64,000 nucleotides of DNA from Desulfatitalea sp. BRH_c12 (lineage in GTDB: Bacteria; Desulfobacterota; Desulfobacteria; Desulfobacterales; Desulfosarcinaceae): contig LADR01000042.1 of the NCBI GenBank assembly GCA_000961655.1, forward strand, positions 1-64,000. Reading direction: 5' to 3'. The notes beneath the pieces were generated by a model, which made no database searches, was not told the origin of the DNA, and was given only the letters and a program-made list of their open reading frames with translations. The position numbers and the translations under genes were made by a program. Positions 42,224 to 57,319 of this stretch are shown in pieces. The stretch's first letter is position 1. Every line of letters begins with the position of its first letter.

Positions 42224-43606
42224 TCAGTCGATGCCATACGTAGCCAATTTGCGCCGCAATGTATTCAACCCGATGTTCAGGACCTTGGCGGTTTGCGATT
42301 TGTTCTGGTTCAGCCGGTTGTAAACAGACATAATATACTCCTGCTCGACGTCGGCCAATGGTCGGAGAGCCGCGTTGTCCTCGGGGGCAACGGCGGCGGA
42401 GATGGCTCCGGGTTTGCTCTGCGCGGCCAGGTGCTCGGGCAGGTGGGGGACGTCGATGGCCTTGCCCTGGGCGAGATTGGCGGCCGACTGGATCACGGAT
42501 CTAAGTTCGCGCACGTTGCCCGGCCACCCATACCCCAGCAAATGCGCCAGTGCGGCACTGGTCACGCGGCGGGAGGCCTGCGTAGGTTTGTCGTAGCGTT
42601 TCAGGAAAAGATCGGCGAGCAGGGCGATATCCTCTGGGCGTTCGCGCAGGGGCGGCAGGTGGAGCAGGCCGCCGCGTATGCGGTAAAACAGGTCTTTGCG
42701 GAAGGCTTTGCGGGCGATCATGCGGTCAAGGTCTTCGTTGGTGGCGGCGATAAAACGCAGATCCACCTTGACCCTTTCGCTACTGCCCACGCGTGAAAAT
42801 TCGCCTTCCTGCAGTACCCGCAGCAGCTTTCCTTGTAATTCCAAGGGTAAGTCGCCGATTTCATCCAGAAAGAGGGTTCCCCGGTGGGTGTGCTCGAGAA
42901 AACCGGTGCGTGCAGCGTCCGCCCCGGTGAAGGCGCCGCGGGTGTGGCCGAAAAATTCCGCTTCGAAGAGGCCGGCGGACACGGAGGACATGTTGATGGG
43001 CGTAAAAGGAAACGGCGCGCGCGGGCTGGCCTGGTGAATGGCTCGCGCCAGCAGTTCTTTGCCGGTGCCGCTTTCTCCGGTGATAAGCACCGGCACATTG
43101 CTGGCGGCATGCAGTTCCGCCTCTTTGAGGATGCGCTGCATGGTCGGCGACTGGGTGACGATCGGCGCAAAGGGCAGGGGGTTGGACAAAGCCGGCAAGG
43201 TCTGGCCTTTTTCGAGGTCGAGAATATCCAGCAGCCGTTTGCGTTCCAATGCGCGCGGCAAGGTCAGCGCCAGAACATCCTTGGCAACCGGCTTTACAAG
43301 GTAATCATAGGCTCCTTTGCGCAGGCAATCCACGGCCGTGCGCGCTTCGTTGATGGCGGTCACCATGATGCATTCCGTGCCCGGACTGGTGTTTTTGATC
43401 AGTTCTAACAGCGCAAGGCCGTCCATGTCTGGCATGGTCATGTCGATCAGGGCCAGGTCAAAGAGGTCGCCGCGTTCAAAGGCCTCGACGGCTTCCAGGG
43501 GGTGGTCGGCCAGACGCAGGTTGTGGTAGCCCAGATCGCGCAGTTTGCCGGCCAGCAGTTCGAGGTAGTCCCGATCGTCATCGATCAAAATAATAGGGTT
43601 GCTCAT
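42224..43606 (-). CDS. Sigma-54-dependent response regulator, NtrC family
   Basis: A 460-residue three-domain activator. The receiver domain (about residues 1-120) has DDDRDY and the phospho-acceptor Asp in LIDMTMPDMDG (about 54). The AAA+ domain has Walker A GESGTGKE (about 170), the sigma-54 contact loop RGAFTGAD and a Walker B LFLDEIGDL. A C-terminal Fis-type HTH ends SQTAKVLNIGLNTLRRKL. It is transcribed divergently from the HdrA-MvhD-MetVF operon, which has a sigma-54 promoter, so it is the likely activator. The cognate kinase may be the hybrid kinase at 51303, though this is unproven. ATG 43606 starts the receiver domain. Confidence 0.94.
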   Translation of the reverse strand: MSNPIILIDDDRDYLELLAGKLRDLGYHNLRLADHPLEAVEAFERGDLFDLALIDMTMPDMDGLALLELIKNTSPGTECIMVTAINEARTAVDCLRKGAYDYLVKPVAKDVLALTLPRALERKRLLDILDLEKGQTLPALSNPLPFAPIVTQSPTMQRILKEAELHAASNVPVLITGESGTGKELLARAIHQASPRAPFPFTPINMSSVSAGLFEAEFFGHTRGAFTGADAARTGFLEHTHRGTLFLDEIGDLPLELQGKLLRVLQEGEFSRVGSSERVKVDLRFIAATNEDLDRMIARKAFRKDLFYRIRGGLLHLPPLRERPEDIALLADLFLKRYDKPTQASRRVTSAALAHLLGYGWPGNVRELRSVIQSAANLAQGKAIDVPHLPEHLAAQSKPGAISAAVAPEDNAALRPLADVEQEYIMSVYNRLNQNKSQTAKVLNIGLNTLRRKLATYGID

Positions 43607-43631
43607 GAAGCCTTGCTCCTGTCGCCGTATG

Positions 43632-43729
43632 CCATTTTGGAACAGTTCCCGGAATGTATTCCAATATGGACCATAGCTCATAGGGCCTTGTATTGACAAC
43701 ATTTATTGCCAAACATGGTCCATTTTGGA
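43632..43729. promoter_or_regulatory. Candidate enhancer (UAS) cluster for the NtrC-type activator
   Basis: Related sites lie in the divergent region: CCATTTTGGAA (43632-43642), TCCAATATGGACCAT (43660-43674) and ATGGTCCATTTTGGA (43715-43729). The last two are reverse complements with one mismatch. Two further palindromes, GGAACAGTTCC (43639-43649) and GGAATGTATTCC (43651-43662), overlap. They sit about 110-210 bases upstream of the sigma-54 promoter, a normal enhancer distance. Confidence 0.6.
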
Positions 43730-43857: not shown

Positions 43858-43977
43858 TTGAATGGGGATGCGCACGCGGCTCGGCGCTTTATTGAATGGC
43901 TCAGCGGACCCAGTGCTTTAACGGCCTGCTGAATTCAAGATAGCAACGAACTTAAATTTTTGAGCAGAGGGATTGTG

Positions 43978-46900
43978 ATGCAATCAGAACAAGGGTCCGA
44001 TACGAAAAAGAGTGTAATTGGCTCGGTCATGGTGGTGGGTGGCGGTATTGCAGGTATTCAGGCGTCACTGGATTTGGCCGACTCGGGGTACCTGGTTAAA
44101 ATGGTGGAGAGCAAAACCGCAATCGGCGGCGTCATGGCTCAATTGGACAAGACTTTTCCGACCAACGACTGCGCCATGTGCGTGATTTCGCCCAAGCTTG
44201 TGGAAGCCGGACGCCACTTGAACATCGATCTGTTCACGACCACCGAGGTGGAGAAGGTTGAAGGCGAGCCTGGCAACTTCAAGGTGACCCTGCTCGAGCG
44301 GCCCCGTTATGTGGAACTGGACAAGTGCACGGCGTGCGGTGAGTGCGCCAAGGTGTGCCCGATCGATGTGCCCAATACCTTTGATCAAGGCTTGCGCGAT
44401 CGCAAAGCCGCTTTCAAGCTTTACCCGCAAGGCATGCCCAGCGCTTTTGCCATCGAAAAGCGCGGCACGGCACCCTGCAAAGCCACCTGCCCGGCGCATG
44501 TGAGCATTCAAGGCTACATTGCCTTGATCAACGACGGCCGCTACAAGGAAGCTTTGAAACTGTTCAAGCAAGAGCATCCTTTTCCCGGCATATGCGGCCG
44601 CGTGTGCCATCACCCCTGCGAAGGCGAGTGCACGCGCAACGATGTGGACCAGCCTCTGGCCATTCGCGAACTGCATCGTTTTCTGGCCGATTACGAGCGC
44701 CAGAGCGGCGAGACCTACATTCCTAAAATCGAAGCGGAAAAACGTGACGAACGCATCGCCGTGATCGGCTCCGGTCCGGCCGGTTTGACTGCGGCCTATT
44801 ATCTGGCGTTGAAAGGGTACTCGGTTACCATTTTCGAGAAATTGCCCGAACCGGGCGGCATGATGCGCGTGGGTATCCCCGAATACCGCCTGCCGCGAGA
44901 TCTTCTGGCGGCCGAAGTGGATGTGATCCGTCAGATGGGCGTGCAGATCAAGTGTGGCGTGACATTCGGCCAGGACATCACCCTGGAAAGCCTGGAAAAA
45001 GAGGGTTTCAAGGCCTGCTTTATGGCTATCGGCCTGCATGGCGGGCGCCGATTGGGCGTGGAAAACGAAGATGCCGCCGGCGTTCTGCAGGGCGTTGAAT
45101 TTCTGCGCGATGCCGCCATGGGCAAACCGGTTGAGATCGGCGAGGATGTGATCGTGGTCGGCGGCGGTAACGTAGCCATCGATGTGGCCCTGACCGCCAA
45201 GCGTAAGGGCGCCAAAAACGTTACCTTGATCTGCTTGGAAAAACGCGAAGAGATGCCGGCCTGGGAACACGAGATCCGTGAAGCCCTCGAAGGGGACATC
45301 GCTATCGTCAACAGCTTCGGCCCCAAAGCCTTTTTCATCGACAAGAATAAAAAAGTTTCAGGTCTCGAATTCAAAAGCTGCACGGCCGTGTTCGATGAAA
45401 ACCGCCGTTTCAATCCGCAGTACGACGACAATGCCTGTCAGCCTTTCTTCGGCGACACAGTGATCATCGCCATCGGCCAGAGCACCGATCTGACCGGCAT
45501 CAAGGAGCAGAACATCGCCCTGTCCCGTCCCGGCGGGCTGCAGGCCGATCCGGTCACGCTGCAGACCCCCATCGAGTGGGTTTTTGCCGGCGGTGATGCG
45601 TTCTACGGCCCCAAGTCGGTGGTCGATGCCGTGGCGTGCGGCAAGGAAGCGGCCGAGAGCATCCATCGCTATGTCAACGGTCTGGATCTGACCGAGGGCC
45701 GCGACAAGAAATGGGAATTTGTCAAACCCGACACTGCCAGGGAGCCCCAAAAAGAACGCGTGACCGTGCGCTGTCTGGATCCGGCTGCGCGCGAGTGCAA
45801 CTTTCTGGAAGTCTCCTTTGGTTACGATGAAGCCGAAGCCAAGCACGAAGCCGAGCGCTGTCTGAAGTGCGGGATCTGCTCGGAGTGCTACCAGTGCGTG
45901 GATGCCTGCCTGGCCAAGGCGATCAATCACAACATGCAACCCAAGCGCACCGAGGTGCAAGTCGGTTCGATCATACTGGCGCCGGGATTTACACCCTACG
46001 ATCCGAGCAAGCACGAGTATTACGGGTATGCCAGTCACCCCAACGTGGTCACGTCCATGGAGTTCGAGCGTGTGCTGTCCGCATCCGGGCCCTACCAGGG
46101 GCACCTGATGCGGCCCTCGGACCACAAGGAGCCTGAAAAGATCGCCTGGCTGCAGTGCATTGGTTCGCGCGACATCAACAAGTGCGATCACAGCTACTGC
46201 TCGGGCGTGTGCTGCATGTACGCGGCAAAGCAGACCGTCATCGCCAAAGAGCACAGCAGCAAGACTCTGGACACGGCTGTTTTCTTTATGGACATGCGCA
46301 CCTACGGCAAGGATTTCGAACGCTACTACATGCGCTGCAAGAATGAAAAGGGCGTCCGTTTCGTGCGTTCGCGGGTGCACACCATCGATCCGGTCGATGG
46401 CGATAACCTGCGGTTGCGCTACGTCAGCGAAGACGGCGAGCTGGTCGAAGAGATCTTCGACATGGTGGTGCTGTCGGTGGGCCTGGCCCCCAATGACGAG
46501 GCCGTGCGGCTGGCCGGTACCATGGGCGTGGACCTCAACACGCACAAGTTCGCCCAGACCAGAGACCTGGCGCCGGTGGCCACCAACCGCGAGGGTATTT
46601 TCGTGTGCGGGGTTTTCCAGGGGCCCAAGGACATCCCCCAATCGGTGATGGAAGCCTCGGCGGCCGCCTCGTCCGCGGCCAGGAACCTGGCCTCCGCGCG
46701 CGGCACCCTGACGCGTACCAAGCAGCTGCCGCCGGAATTGGATGTCAGCGGGCAGGCGCCGCGCATCGGTGTGTTCGTGTGCAACTGCGGCATCAATATC
46801 GGCGGAGTGGCCGATGTGCCGGCCGTGCGCGAATATGCCAGGACCCTGCCGGACGTGGTGCACGTGGAAGACAATCTGTTCACCTGCTCGCAGGACACCC

Positions 46901-48438
46901 AGGACAAGATGAAAGAGGTCATCAAAGAAATGGGCATCAACCGCGTGGTGGTGGCCTCCTGTTCACCGCGCACCCATGAGCCGCTTTTCCAGGAGACCAT
47001 CCGCGAAGCGGGGCTGAACAAATACTTGTTCGAGATGGCCAACATCCGCGACCAAAACACCTGGGTCCATATGAACAATCCCCAGAAAGCCACTGAAAAA
47101 GCCAAGGATCTGGTGCGCATGGCCGTGGCCAAGGCCGCCTATGTGGAGCCGCTGCACCAGGTCAGCCTGAATGTCAAGCAGACCGGGCTGGTGGTGGGCG
47201 GCGGCGTGGCCGGCATGGAAGCGGCCTTAGGCATCGCCGAGCAGGGTTTTCAGACCTATCTGGTCGAGCGTTCAGCCCAGCTGGGCGGCAACGCTCTATG
47301 GCTGCGCGCCACCTGGCAGGGTGAAAAAATTGCCCCCTATGTGGAAAATCTGATCGAACGGGTCCGCAATCACGACAAAATCAAAACCTTCCTCGATTCG
47401 GAAGTCATCGAAACGGCCGGCATCCTGGGCAATTTCACCAGCACTGTGGCCACCGGCGGCGAGACCATGATCACCACGGCCATCGAGCACGGGGTTACGA
47501 TTCTGGCCACCGGCGGCCGGGAATATCAGCCCACTGAATTCAATTATGGCCAAAACCCCAACATTCTGACGCACAAGGAGCTGGACGAGGCCATGACGGC
47601 CGGCGATGCCCGCATTGCCGCGGCCGATACAGCCGTTTTCATCCAGTGTGTCGGTTCGCGTACCGAGCAGCGGCCCTCGTGCAGCCGCATCTGCTGCACC
47701 CACAGCGTAAAATCGGCGATCGTCCTCAAGGAACAGAAGCCTGATATGGATATCTTCATTCTGTATCGGGACATCCGCACCTACGGTTTCCGCGAGGATC
47801 TGTACCGCAAAGCCCGCGAAAAGGGCGTGATCTTCATCCGTTTCGACCTGGAGGCGCCGCCCCAGGTGACCAATGGCAGCGGCCAACTGAGCGTCACGGT
47901 CAAGGATCACATTTTGGGCCGGCCGATCGAATTGAATCCCGACTTATTGATACTGGCCACGGCCGTGCTGCCCAACGAGAACAAGGATCTGTTCGAACTG
48001 TTCAAGGTGCCGACCAACGCCGAAGGGTTCCTGGTTGAAGCCCACGCCAAACTGCGGCCGGTCGACTTTTCCTCCGAGGGCATTTTTATGGCCGGTCTGG
48101 CCCACGCCCCGAAATCGATCGATGAAACCATCGCCCAGGCCCAGGCTTCCGTATCGCGGGCATCGACCATCCTGAGCAAGGAGACCATCTGGGTCGGTGG
48201 GGTGACCGCGATCGTCGATCCCGATCGTTGCGCTGTCTGCCTGACCTGTGTCCGCACGTGCCCGTATCATGTCCCGTATATCGGCCAGGAGGGCTATGCC
48301 GTCATCGACCCGGCCGGTTGTCAAGGATGCGGGTGCTGCGTGTCTGAATGCCCGGGCAAGGCCATTACATTGAAGCATTTCACGGATGAGCAGATGATCG
48401 CCAAGACAGCGGCGCTGTTTGCGGTATGCCGGTCGTAA
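43978..48438 (+). CDS. hdrA: Giant HdrA-like flavoprotein with GltD/NfnB-like insertion
   Basis: A 1486-residue iron-sulfur flavoprotein. The N-terminus is an HdrA FAD domain (VVGGGIAGIQA about residue 15; TNDCAMCVISPKL) with a CTACGECAKVCP cluster (about 117). A GltD/NfnB-type module is inserted (about 155-570): CKATCPAHV, CGRVCHHPCEGECTR, FAD site GSGPAGLTAA (about 261) and NAD(P) site VGGGNVAIDV (about 391). HdrA sequence resumes (CLKCGICSECYQCVDAC about 628), followed by an HdrA-like second half (VFVCNCGINIGG about 932; FAD site GGGVAGMEA about 1073) and C-terminal 2[4Fe-4S] motifs (CAVCLTCVRTCP about 1418; CQGCGCCVSECP). HdrA is the bifurcating flavoprotein of heterodisulfide-reductase systems. 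ATG 43978 follows GAGGGA; TTG 43960 is possible. Confidence 0.9.
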   Translation: MQSEQGSDTKKSVIGSVMVVGGGIAGIQASLDLADSGYLVKMVESKTAIGGVMAQLDKTFPTNDCAMCVISPKLVEAGRHLNIDLFTTTEVEKVEGEPGNFKVTLLERPRYVELDKCTACGECAKVCPIDVPNTFDQGLRDRKAAFKLYPQGMPSAFAIEKRGTAPCKATCPAHVSIQGYIALINDGRYKEALKLFKQEHPFPGICGRVCHHPCEGECTRNDVDQPLAIRELHRFLADYERQSGETYIPKIEAEKRDERIAVIGSGPAGLTAAYYLALKGYSVTIFEKLPEPGGMMRVGIPEYRLPRDLLAAEVDVIRQMGVQIKCGVTFGQDITLESLEKEGFKACFMAIGLHGGRRLGVENEDAAGVLQGVEFLRDAAMGKPVEIGEDVIVVGGGNVAIDVALTAKRKGAKNVTLICLEKREEMPAWEHEIREALEGDIAIVNSFGPKAFFIDKNKKVSGLEFKSCTAVFDENRRFNPQYDDNACQPFFGDTVIIAIGQSTDLTGIKEQNIALSRPGGLQADPVTLQTPIEWVFAGGDAFYGPKSVVDAVACGKEAAESIHRYVNGLDLTEGRDKKWEFVKPDTAREPQKERVTVRCLDPAARECNFLEVSFGYDEAEAKHEAERCLKCGICSECYQCVDACLAKAINHNMQPKRTEVQVGSIILAPGFTPYDPSKHEYYGYASHPNVVTSMEFERVLSASGPYQGHLMRPSDHKEPEKIAWLQCIGSRDINKCDHSYCSGVCCMYAAKQTVIAKEHSSKTLDTAVFFMDMRTYGKDFERYYMRCKNEKGVRFVRSRVHTIDPVDGDNLRLRYVSEDGELVEEIFDMVVLSVGLAPNDEAVRLAGTMGVDLNTHKFAQTRDLAPVATNREGIFVCGVFQGPKDIPQSVMEASAAASSAARNLASARGTLTRTKQLPPELDVSGQAPRIGVFVCNCGINIGGVADVPAVREYARTLPDVVHVEDNLFTCSQDTQDKMKEVIKEMGINRVVVASCSPRTHEPLFQETIREAGLNKYLFEMANIRDQNTWVHMNNPQKATEKAKDLVRMAVAKAAYVEPLHQVSLNVKQTGLVVGGGVAGMEAALGIAEQGFQTYLVERSAQLGGNALWLRATWQGEKIAPYVENLIERVRNHDKIKTFLDSEVIETAGILGNFTSTVATGGETMITTAIEHGVTILATGGREYQPTEFNYGQNPNILTHKELDEAMTAGDARIAAADTAVFIQCVGSRTEQRPSCSRICCTHSVKSAIVLKEQKPDMDIFILYRDIRTYGFREDLYRKAREKGVIFIRFDLEAPPQVTNGSGQLSVTVKDHILGRPIELNPDLLILATAVLPNENKDLFELFKVPTNAEGFLVEAHAKLRPVDFSSEGIFMAGLAHAPKSIDETIAQAQASVSRASTILSKETIWVGGVTAIVDPDRCAVCLTCVRTCPYHVPYIGQEGYAVIDPAGCQGCGCCVSECPGKAITLKHFTDEQMIAKTAALFAVCRS

Positions 48439-48506: not shown

Positions 48507-48926
48507 ATGAGTGCTACGTTTGAACCCCAAATCGTCGCCTTCTGCTGCAAGTACTGCGCTTATGCAGCCGGTGATCTGGCTGGTTCCATGCGGCTGAACT
48601 ATCCGTCCAATGTGAAAGTGATCCAGGTGCCCTGCACCGGCCGTGTGGATATCCTGCATTTACTGCGGGCTATCGAAGACGGGGCCGATGCTGTTTACGT
48701 GGCCGGCTGACTGGAGGGTGAATGCCATTTCCTGGAAGGAAATCTAAAAACCCGCCGCAAAGTCGAGTATGTAAAGCGCACCTTGAAAGAGATCTACATG
48801 GAGGAAGGCCGCGTAGAGATGTTCAATCTCTCTTCGGCCCAGGGGCCGCGGTTTGCCGAAATCGCAACCGAGATGACCGAACGGGCCCTGAAATTAGGCC
48901 CCAGTCCGCTGAATCCGTGTAATTAG
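48507..48926 (+). CDS. mvhD: MvhD-type iron-sulfur subunit, predicted selenoprotein (UGA 48708-48710 = Sec)
   Basis: Reading through the in-frame TGA at 48708 gives 139 residues with Sec at position 68. The N-terminal half has FCCKYCAYAA and VPCTGRVD; after the TGA the same frame continues LEGECHFLEGNLKTRRKVEY to a TAG at 48924. MvhD homologues have a Cys at the TGA position (VAGC..G.CH...GN). In methanococci the VhuD homologue is known to use selenocysteine. A stem-loop 17-33 bases after the TGA fits a bacterial SECIS. MvhD transfers electrons from a hydrogenase or other donor to HdrA; here it sits between HdrA and MetV. AAAGGAAAGG precedes the ATG. Confidence 0.88.
48727..48743 (+). promoter_or_regulatory. 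Putative bacterial SECIS stem-loop of mvhD
   Basis: ATTTCC (48727-48732) pairs with GGAAAT (48738-48743) around the loop TGGAA, inside the coding sequence. The apical loop begins 22 bases after the UGA, within the distance at which SelB-binding bSECIS loops act, and contains the required G residues. Confidence 0.65.
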
Positions 48927-49042: not shown

Positions 49043-49711
49043 ATGATAATTGCTGATCGAAAGCCCCTGCAGGAGATCCAGGAGATGATCAAGCCTTACG
49101 ACAAGGTGATGCTGGTCGGCTGCAAGGGGTGTGTCACCGTCTGCAACGCAGGCGGATTGAAAGAGGTCCAGATTCTGGCCTCCACGCTGCGGATCGCCCG
49201 CAAGAAGGAAGGGCGGCCCCTGGTGGTCGAAGAACGGATGCTGGAGCGGCAGTGCGACCCGGAGTATATCGAGCAGCTGCGCGACAGCTACGATCAGTAC
49301 GATGCCGTGCTCTCGATGGCGTGCGGGGTCGGACCGCAATTTTTGTCCGAAGCCTATCCCAGCCAGCGTTTTTTCCCGACCGTGAACACCAAGTTCATGG
49401 GAGGTGCCGTTCAGCACGGCATCTGGGAAGAACGCTGCGCCGGATGTGGCACCTGCATCATTCATCATTTTGACGGCATGTGCCCGATTGCGCGCTGTTC
49501 GAAAAGCCTGCAGCATGGCCCGTGCGGCGGCAGTGCCGGCGGCCTGTGCGAAGTGTCCAAAGAGATTGTCTGCATCTGGGATTTGATCGTGCGCAAGAAG
49601 ATCGAACAAGGACGTTTGGACGACTTGCGAAAATACTGGGCTGCCAAGGATTGGCGCACAGCCCGTGATGGTGGACCGCGCAAGAGCATAAGGGAGGAGT
49701 TGGTAAAATGA
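49043..49711 (+). CDS. metV: MetV-like methylenetetrahydrofolate reductase C-terminal-domain protein
   Basis: A 222-residue iron-sulfur protein. GCKGCVTVCNAGG (about residues 27-39), a central ACGVGPQ segment, and a C-terminal cysteine block CAGCGTCIIHHFDGMCPIARC (starting about 133) with GPCGG match MetV, the zinc/Fe-S partner of MetF in acetogens. It links MetF to an electron carrier such as HdrA/MvhD. An upstream 116-base gap follows mvhD (48927-49042) with short GGGCCAACG repeats. The stop overlaps the metF start by four bases. Confidence 0.9.
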   Translation: MIIADRKPLQEIQEMIKPYDKVMLVGCKGCVTVCNAGGLKEVQILASTLRIARKKEGRPLVVEERMLERQCDPEYIEQLRDSYDQYDAVLSMACGVGPQFLSEAYPSQRFFPTVNTKFMGGAVQHGIWEERCAGCGTCIIHHFDGMCPIARCSKSLQHGPCGGSAGGLCEVSKEIVCIWDLIVRKKIEQGRLDDLRKYWAAKDWRTARDGGPRKSIREELVK

Positions 49712-50649
49712 GTGAAAACGGCTACAAATCGGGCAGCAACTTGGAAAAGGTGCTCAAAGCCGGTCATTTTGCCTTTACCGGCGAGTGTGGGCCCCCCAAG
49801 GGCGCCAACGTTGCGCACCTGAAGGAGAAGATGGAACCTTTGCGGGGCATGGTGGACGCCATCAATGTCACCGACAACCAGACCGCTGTCGTGCGCATGT
49901 CCAGCAAGGCGGCCAGCTGCCTGATGGTGCAGGCAGGCCTGGAACCCAATTTTCAGATGGTTTGCCGCGACCGCAACCGCATTGCGATGCAAAGCGATAT
50001 TCTGGGGGCCTCCGCCTTGGGAATCCGCAACATGCTATGCCTGTCGGGCGACCATCAATCGTTTGGAAACCATCCCGAATCCAAAAATGTATTTGACATC
50101 GACAGCATGCAGCTCATCGCCTTGGTCAAGAAAATGCGCGATGAGGGCCGGTTTCTCAACGATGAGGAGATCGACGAGCCGCCCAAGCTGTTTATCGGGG
50201 CAGCCAGCAATCCCTTCGGTGATCCGGTGGATTTCCGTGTGTACCGGCTGGCCAACAAAATAGATGCCGGCGCGGATTTCATCCAGACCCAGTGCATTTA
50301 CAACATGCCGCGTTTCCGCGAATTCATCAAACGCGCTGTCGATATGGGATTGACTGAGAAAACCTATATTCTGGCCGGCGTAACGCCCATGAAGAGCGCC
50401 GGTATGGCCAAGTACATGGCCCGCTCGGTACCCGGCATGGATGTGCCGGCCGACCTGATCAAGCGCATCGAAGGCGCCGGCAAAGGCAAGATGGCCGAGG
50501 AGGGCATCAAATTCGCCATCGAGCAGATCCAGGAGTTCAAGGAAATGAAGGGCGTCGCCGGCGTGCATCTGATGGCGATCGAATGGGAGCACAAAGTGCC
50601 CGAGATCGCAGAGAGGGCCGGCATGTTGCCGCGGCCCAAAGTCGATTAG
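49708..50649 (+). CDS. metF: 5,10-methylenetetrahydrofolate reductase
   Basis: A 313-residue MetF TIM-barrel flavoprotein that interconverts methylene- and methyl-tetrahydrofolate in the methyl branch of the Wood-Ljungdahl pathway. FTGECGPPKGANV (about residues 22-34) carries the catalytic Glu, followed by VTDNQ, LCLSGDHQ (about 111-118) and a C-terminal GVHLMAIEWEHKVPEI. ATGA overlap with metV shows coupling. Together with HdrA and MvhD this matches the HdrABC-MvhD-MetVF-type complexes of acetogens, but here HdrB and HdrC genes are missing. Confidence 0.95.
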   Translation: MSENGYKSGSNLEKVLKAGHFAFTGECGPPKGANVAHLKEKMEPLRGMVDAINVTDNQTAVVRMSSKAASCLMVQAGLEPNFQMVCRDRNRIAMQSDILGASALGIRNMLCLSGDHQSFGNHPESKNVFDIDSMQLIALVKKMRDEGRFLNDEEIDEPPKLFIGAASNPFGDPVDFRVYRLANKIDAGADFIQTQCIYNMPRFREFIKRAVDMGLTEKTYILAGVTPMKSAGMAKYMARSVPGMDVPADLIKRIEGAGKGKMAEEGIKFAIEQIQEFKEMKGVAGVHLMAIEWEHKVPEIAERAGMLPRPKVD

Positions 50650-55523: not shown

Positions 55524-55600
55524 CGCCATAAAAAAGCAGTTGCCCCCAAGCGCCCACTTGAATAATAGTTCCCAACCATACTCGAATGAAGAGGAACGCT

Positions 55601-57319
55601 ATGAATTTGCCTCACCCATTATCGCTTGCGGACGAGCGCCCCCTGGTCGATTTGCTGGTGGACGCGGATCGGGCGGCCATATTGAAGGATCTTGCCACCC
55701 ACCTGAGTAGCATCACATTGAACGATCATCAGCTTTGCGATATCGAATTGCTCGCCACCGGCGCTTTCTCACCTCTGAAAGGTTTCATGAACCGCCCCGA
55801 TTATGAAAGTGTGCTGGACCGTATGCAGCTTCAGGATGGCACGCTCTGGCCACTGCCGATTTGCCTGGGCGTTTCCGAAAAGCAAGGTCGCCTGATTGAA
55901 AGTGGGCAATCGGTCGCCATACGGGATCCCGAAGGGTATCTGCTGGCGATTTTGCATGTCGAGGATGTCTGGCCGGTCGACAGAACCAAGGAAGCCCTTG
56001 CCGTATTAGGAACGGCGGACATGCAGCATCCTAGGGTGCGTTATCTCCACGAAAGAGAAGGCGCGTATTACGTGGGCGGCCCATTGGAGGTCGTGAGCCT
56101 GCCCCTGCACTACGATTTCAAGCAGTTGCGCCTTTCACCCAGCGAAGTTCGTGCTTTATACCGTAAATTCGGATGGAAACGGGTGGTCGGTCTGCAGACA
56201 CGCCATCCCATTCACCGTCCGCAGTTCGAAATGACCCTCAAGGCCATGCAGGCGTCCAAAGCCAATCTTCTTATTCTGCCGATCGTCGGACTGACCATGC
56301 CCGATGATTTTGATTATTATACCCGCGTGCGCTGCTACCAGGAGGTTATTCGCCACTATCCTCCGAATTCGACATTGCTGAATCTGCTGCCCCTGTCGGC
56401 CCGCATGGCCGGACCCAAAGAAGGCTTGATGCACGCCATCATCGCCAAAAATTATGGCTGCTCACACTTTATCATCGGTCACAATCACGCCAATCCCGGC
56501 ATCGACAGTTCCGGTCAACCCTATTATGAGAGCTGCGAAACCCGCCGTTTGGTGACCGAGTGGTCCGGGGCAATTGGCATTGACATTCTGCCGTTCGATG
56601 AATTGGTTTACCTGCCATTTGAAGATGAGTACCGAACACGCGATGATGTCGCGGAGGGTGTACAAACCATTTCGATGTCGGGAGACGATATTCGGCGTCG
56701 CATCCGATCAGGCCGGAGCATTCCCGAATGGGCTTCATTCCCCGAGGTGGTCACTCAGATCCGCAAAGCTTACCCAAGTCCCCGGCAGCAAGGGTTCACT
56801 GTCTTTCTGACCGGCTTGTCCGGGGCCGGCAAATCCACGATCGCCAAAGTGCTTTACGCGCAGATGCTGGAAATTGGGGAAAGGCCGGTGACGCTGCTTG
56901 ATGGTGACATCGTGCGGACCAATTTATCGAGTGAACTGAGTTTTTCCAAGGAACACCGCGACATCAATGTGCGCCGGATCGGGTTTGTCGCCAGCGAAAT
57001 CACCAAGAACCGTGGCATCGCTATCTGTGCCCCGATTGCCCCGTACGACAATACCCGCAAGGAGATCCGCAACGCCATCGAAGCCCACGGCGGATTTGTC
57101 GAGGTGCATGTCGCGACACCCCTGCAAGAATGCGAAAAACGCGATCGAAAGGGGATGTATGCCAAAGCCAAGGCCGGCTTGATCAAAGGTTTTACGGGGG
57201 TGGACGACCCCTATGAAATACCGCATGACGCTGAGTTGCGGATAGACACCAGTGGCATTTCGCCCGATGAAGCGGCCCAGGAAATCCTTTTGTTCTTGGG
57301 GCGGCGCGGCTACATTTGA
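55601..57319 (+). CDS. sat/cysC: Bifunctional sulfate adenylyltransferase/adenylylsulfate kinase
   Basis: A 572-residue fusion. The N-terminal ATP sulfurylase (about residues 1-390) shows QTRHPIHRPQFEMT (the QxRNPxHxxH-like active site) and GHNHANPG. The C-terminal APS kinase (about 395-572) has Walker A GLSGAGKST (about 405), DGDIVRTNLS and a lid with DRKGMYAKAKAG. It turns sulfate into PAPS. Dissimilatory Sat enzymes are normally single-domain, so this copy more likely serves assimilation or sulfation of polymers. ATG 55601 follows GAGGAA; ATG 55586 is an in-frame alternative. An exopolysaccharide locus starts 0.6 kb downstream. Confidence 0.92.
   Translation: MNLPHPLSLADERPLVDLLVDADRAAILKDLATHLSSITLNDHQLCDIELLATGAFSPLKGFMNRPDYESVLDRMQLQDGTLWPLPICLGVSEKQGRLIESGQSVAIRDPEGYLLAILHVEDVWPVDRTKEALAVLGTADMQHPRVRYLHEREGAYYVGGPLEVVSLPLHYDFKQLRLSPSEVRALYRKFGWKRVVGLQTRHPIHRPQFEMTLKAMQASKANLLILPIVGLTMPDDFDYYTRVRCYQEVIRHYPPNSTLLNLLPLSARMAGPKEGLMHAIIAKNYGCSHFIIGHNHANPGIDSSGQPYYESCETRRLVTEWSGAIGIDILPFDELVYLPFEDEYRTRDDVAEGVQTISMSGDDIRRRIRSGRSIPEWASFPEVVTQIRKAYPSPRQQGFTVFLTGLSGAGKSTIAKVLYAQMLEIGERPVTLLDGDIVRTNLSSELSFSKEHRDINVRRIGFVASEITKNRGIAICAPIAPYDNTRKEIRNAIEAHGGFVEVHVATPLQECEKRDRKGMYAKAKAGLIKGFTGVDDPYEIPHDAELRIDTSGISPDEAAQEILLFLGRRGYI

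Follow-up and report, generated by a model that had tools for sequence, protein, structure and literature searches.

An in-frame UGA in mvhD of a Desulfatitalea hdrL–mvhD–metV–metF operon is almost certainly read as selenocysteine

A stop codon inside a protein family domain raises the question of whether the gene is broken, whether translation ends there, or whether the stop is read as an amino acid. We asked this of mvhD (flpD) in a 64,000-nucleotide stretch of the Desulfatitalea sp. BRH_c12 genome (hereafter the window). The gene lies on the plus strand at 48507–48926, as the initial annotation had correctly placed it: it opens with ATG at 48507 behind a purine-rich ribosome-binding site (AAAGGAAAGG), meets a TGA at 48708–48710, and closes with TAG at 48924–48926. 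With the TGA (codon 68) read through, the product has 139 residues and reads MSATFEPQIVAFCCKYCAYAAGDLAG...VYVAG-U-LEGECHFLEGN...GPSPLNPCN, with 71 conserved codons following the TGA. We found that the full frame matched the FlpD/MvhD profile PF02662 at 154.3 bits (E = 1.9e-45; curated cut-off 22.3), covering all of profile positions 1–123, while the 67-residue product that ends at the TGA scored 82 bits and covered only positions 1–59, less than half of the profile. On the narrower VhuD model NF045873, the protein scored 148.5 bits, under the cut-off of 215. Solved MvhD/VhuD chains (for example 7bkb_F, E = 6e-36) align through the TGA site, where 7bkb_F and 9sw2_D carry cysteine and 9sfi_K carries a nonstandard residue, X. 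Thus, the UGA stands where homologues have cysteine, and the family sequence continues in frame beyond it, both as first proposed for this gene.

Bacterial selenocysteine codons are accompanied by a hairpin (SECIS) within the coding region, and a candidate was found at 48727–48743, with the sequence AUUUCCU-GGA-AGGAAAU and an apical loop at 48734–48736. Its first base falls 16 nt past the TGA, a small correction to the 17 bases originally given, and the hairpin itself proved to be beyond chance. The fold has a GGA loop beginning 23 nt past the UGA and a stem of 7 bp, with an energy of −14.8 kcal/mol over 53 nt, in agreement with published rules for bacterial SECIS elements (PMC13188914). The folding energy of this single sequence was only modestly unusual (z = −1.63, with 13 of 200 shuffles folding as well) and is too weak to decide the matter, so the case for the hairpin rests on comparison; an Rfam search of the region returned chance matches only, with no SECIS family among them.

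The comparison was decisive. The exact hairpin recurs in each of the 33 distinct clade members with TGA68, and over codons 74–79, the six that cover it, every same-residue codon comparison among these homologues was identical (3136/3136). Elsewhere in the same genes, same-residue codons agreed in 51% of comparisons upstream and 50% over codons 80–88, and in the cysteine homologues agreement over codons 74–79 was 46%. Across the wider set of 88 TGA homologues, residue 75 is tied to the codon used for Gly78: Phe75 (TTC) occurs with GGA in 36/36 and Tyr75 (TAC) with GGT in 52/52, counts that are not probabilities because related rows are not independent events, although genes with Phe and those with Tyr clearly fall in separate parts of the family. 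The swap exchanges a U-A pair for an A-U pair by way of a synonymous change at Gly78, and so the stem is kept by compensatory change. No link between codons 75 and 78 was seen in the cysteine homologues, in which Gly is encoded by any of its four codons, GGC most often. These alignments are direct evidence for selection on the paired RNA in the TGA-carrying genes, and in those alone; we regard the role of the hairpin as settled because synonymous conservation is complete and compensatory pairing holds in 88 of 88 genes.

Selenocysteine insertion further depends on dedicated machinery, whose absence would have counted against the reading. The complete set selA, selB, selC, and selD was found in the same genome: SelA (613.8 bits), SelB (379.5 bits), SelD (372.6 bits), and a tRNA-Sec with anticodon TCA on contig C75 (72.4 bits). 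From established knowledge, SelB carrying Sec-tRNA-Sec would bind the hairpin, so that selenocysteine would be inserted and termination avoided. The selD gene (C66:111700–112626, minus strand) itself contains one in-frame TGA, for which reason the selenophosphate synthetase of this genome is probably a selenoprotein as well. The genome holds 12 matches to PF02662, of which three, the window gene and two further copies, have a single internal TGA; in all three it falls at the codon matching residue 68, and the two further copies have matching hairpins. At another locus of the same genome (L003, C18:48241–48609), two mvhD genes are adjacent, one of them a cysteine homologue of the same MvhD clade. 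In relatives, such cysteine copies have no metV and metF neighbors. It is possible that the L003 gene is a selenium-independent counterpart.

We considered three other accounts of the TGA. Under the first, termination at codon 68 is regulated, and the 67-residue N-terminal piece is functional when selenium is limiting. The cysteine homologue at L003 fits such a scheme, as does the alternation of selenocysteine and cysteine isoforms with selenium supply in methanogens (PMC11097638); the piece, however, is missing Cys73 along with half of the domain, and we consider this account very improbable. A still less probable account is that UGA is reassigned, is read as tryptophan or cysteine, or is leaky, with no signal specific for selenocysteine. 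An in-frame TGA does not by itself tell which residue is inserted, but within this very operon TGA also serves as a genuine stop (metV ends in TGA at 49709–49711), the alignable TGA codons of the TGA homologues examined fall at cysteine positions 17 and 68 only, and a dedicated hairpin and a tRNA-Sec are present; on these comparative data code reassignment was rejected. Finally, a nonsense mutation or miscalled base truncating the protein at 67 residues would agree with the two short open reading frames that a standard gene caller would give (48507–48710 and 48722–48922), but it is excluded by the comparative data, since the same TGA recurs in 88 nonidentical homologues from many genera, the hairpin is tied to the presence of the TGA, and dN downstream of it is well below dS.

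That last comparison left out the hairpin codons and was confined to nearby TGA homologues. For the window gene, dN and dS after the TGA were 0.028 and 1.02 against one such homologue (L057) and 0.058 and 1.12 against another (L059), and dN/dS was well below one in all of those compared. The closest named relatives of the window are Desulfatitalea, which by itself would place the window most likely in or near that genus (Desulfosarcinaceae). Homologues in close relatives ending at the same place would have told against readthrough; among the relatives examined we found none that did, and in them the frame stays open with amino acid changes suppressed downstream. Together with the machinery and the paired hairpin, these data support the reading of UGA as selenocysteine first put forward for this gene. 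We conclude that the in-frame stop of mvhD is almost certainly read as selenocysteine, and, judging from the sequence comparisons, we put at about 97% the probability that its product is an MvhD with selenocysteine at residue 68. As the initial annotation had anticipated, automatic annotation would cut this protein short. Across dozens of relatives the same error would arise, and a functioning MvhD subunit in an electron path of the C1 metabolism of sulfate reducers would go unnoticed.

A role for the protein is suggested by the neighbors of mvhD, all on the plus strand. Upstream, in the window and in relatives also, lies hdrL (43978–48438), an HdrA-coding gene without internal TGA codons whose product carries a GltD-like, NAD(P)H-binding insert; the start of hdrL is uncertain between TTG at 43960 and ATG at 43978. 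Taken from 43960, HdrL is a large protein of about 1487 residues, with the glutamate-synthase-like NAD(P)H domain inserted in HdrA and no selenocysteine. Downstream follow a metV-like gene (49043–49711; PF12225, the methylene-THF reductase C-terminal family), whose genuine TGA stop overlaps the start of the next gene, and metF, encoding methylenetetrahydrofolate reductase (49708–50649; PF02219), assigned by profile match and by gene order in relatives. The order hdrL–mvhD–metV–metF was present in 30 of 34 TGA68 loci (three lack metV and metF, and one is cut upstream by a contig end), in 7 of 7 loci with a TGA at codon 17, and in 17 of 39 cysteine loci. On its upstream side, hdrL is flanked by a regulator gene of the opposite strand; in the window this gene (42224–43702, minus strand) appears by eye, from its translation only, to be a sigma-54-type response regulator. 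Farther downstream, the translation of 55586–57319 resembles, also by eye, a sulfate adenylyltransferase fused to an APS kinase.

Because these operon partners are conserved, we propose an electron path from MetVF through MvhD to HdrL, or the reverse: MvhD is probably the electron carrier that connects methylene-THF reductase with the NAD(P)H-linked HdrA. MvhD with its [2Fe-2S] cluster would join MetVF, acting on methyl- and methylene-THF, to HdrL as a flavoprotein linked to NAD(P)H and ferredoxin, and electrons would flow one way or the other according to the direction in which the Wood-Ljungdahl pathway is operating. The site of action of Sec68 would be the cluster or its immediate vicinity. 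In solved complexes, the [2Fe-2S] cluster of MvhD lies close to the bifurcating flavin (PMC12350162).

The position of the selenocysteine is not the same in every homologue. In a sample of 191 nonidentical homologues, seeded by the window protein and high-scoring family matches, TGA occurred at codon 68 in 88, at codon 17 with cysteine at 68 (CxxU) in 11, and at both codons in none. The codon 17 loci are L093 (6049–6051), L095, L108, L109, L116, L128, L133, L186, L193, L194, and L195; in each, the TGA is followed by a hairpin of a different sequence, GGACCU-GGC-AGGUUC, with its loop 20 nt past that TGA. A tree of the clade, built on few columns and with many forks lacking resolution, places TGA17 in two places and requires about seven changes for TGA68. 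In the solved MvhD-type chain 9sfi_K, the positions matching 17 and 68 both hold nonstandard residues, which are probably two selenocysteines; a literature search on PDB entry 9sfi found no paper. We tentatively propose, at somewhat less than even odds, that within one orthologous operon selenocysteine sits at 68 or at 17, each with its own SECIS and never both in the bacterial genes examined, so that selenocysteine would have moved during evolution between two cysteine sites of a cluster-bearing protein, as though a single selenium on either side of the cluster sufficed. Such exclusivity should not yet be generalized, given that the sampling was seeded; an archaeal representative, moreover, is listed with two selenocysteines. 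The alternation may be new: we found no description of it in the literature searched, the likeliest place for one, a 2007 paper on Olavius symbionts, lying outside that search. It would provide a natural comparison for the role of selenium at a [2Fe-2S] electron-transfer protein.

Selenocysteine MvhD is itself already known, in sulfate reducers since at least 2009 and also in archaea; it is for the archaeal form that published proof of the residue is cited, and the bacterial forms are, as far as we found, predicted from sequence. The initial annotation drew a parallel to the VhuD of methanococci. The parallel holds for the protein, which belongs to the same selenocysteine-bearing family and likewise has an HdrA partner, but not for the SECIS, which in methanococci is of the archaeal kind, mostly in 3′ untranslated regions (PMC13188914), whereas that of the window is bacterial and within the coding region. 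The close precedent is bacterial. For Desulfobacterium autotrophicum HRM2, the available part of the published account (PMC2702500) gives mvhD1, mvhD2, mvhD3, and mvhD5 as selenocysteine genes, and the likeness is broad: a member of the Desulfobacterales with UGA as selenocysteine in MvhD, mvhD following hdrA or hdrL, and full sel machinery. In that part, the partners of mvhD are, for example, dsrABC or formate dehydrogenase, whereas in the window they are metV and metF, and two HdrL copies (HdrL1 and HdrL3) are selenoproteins, unlike the HdrL of the window. In Desulfococcus multivorans DSM 2059 (PMC5109826), one selenocysteine mvhD is listed (dmul_C28840/50), which the annotation likewise splits at the UGA, with a SECIS following. 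PMC8318568 also lists, for a further marine deltaproteobacterium, a selenocysteine-containing methyl-viologen-reducing hydrogenase. For the operon as a whole, the nearest described analogue, as far as it is set out in two later papers (PMC6085437, PMC5736913), is the HdrCBA–MvhD–MetVF methylene-THF reductase complex of Moorella (Mock et al. 2014). On those descriptions, the two share mvhD together with metV and metF and differ in that the window has hdrL–mvhD–metV–metF only, with no hdrBC adjoining hdrL, and has HdrL with its GltD-like insert where Moorella has HdrA.
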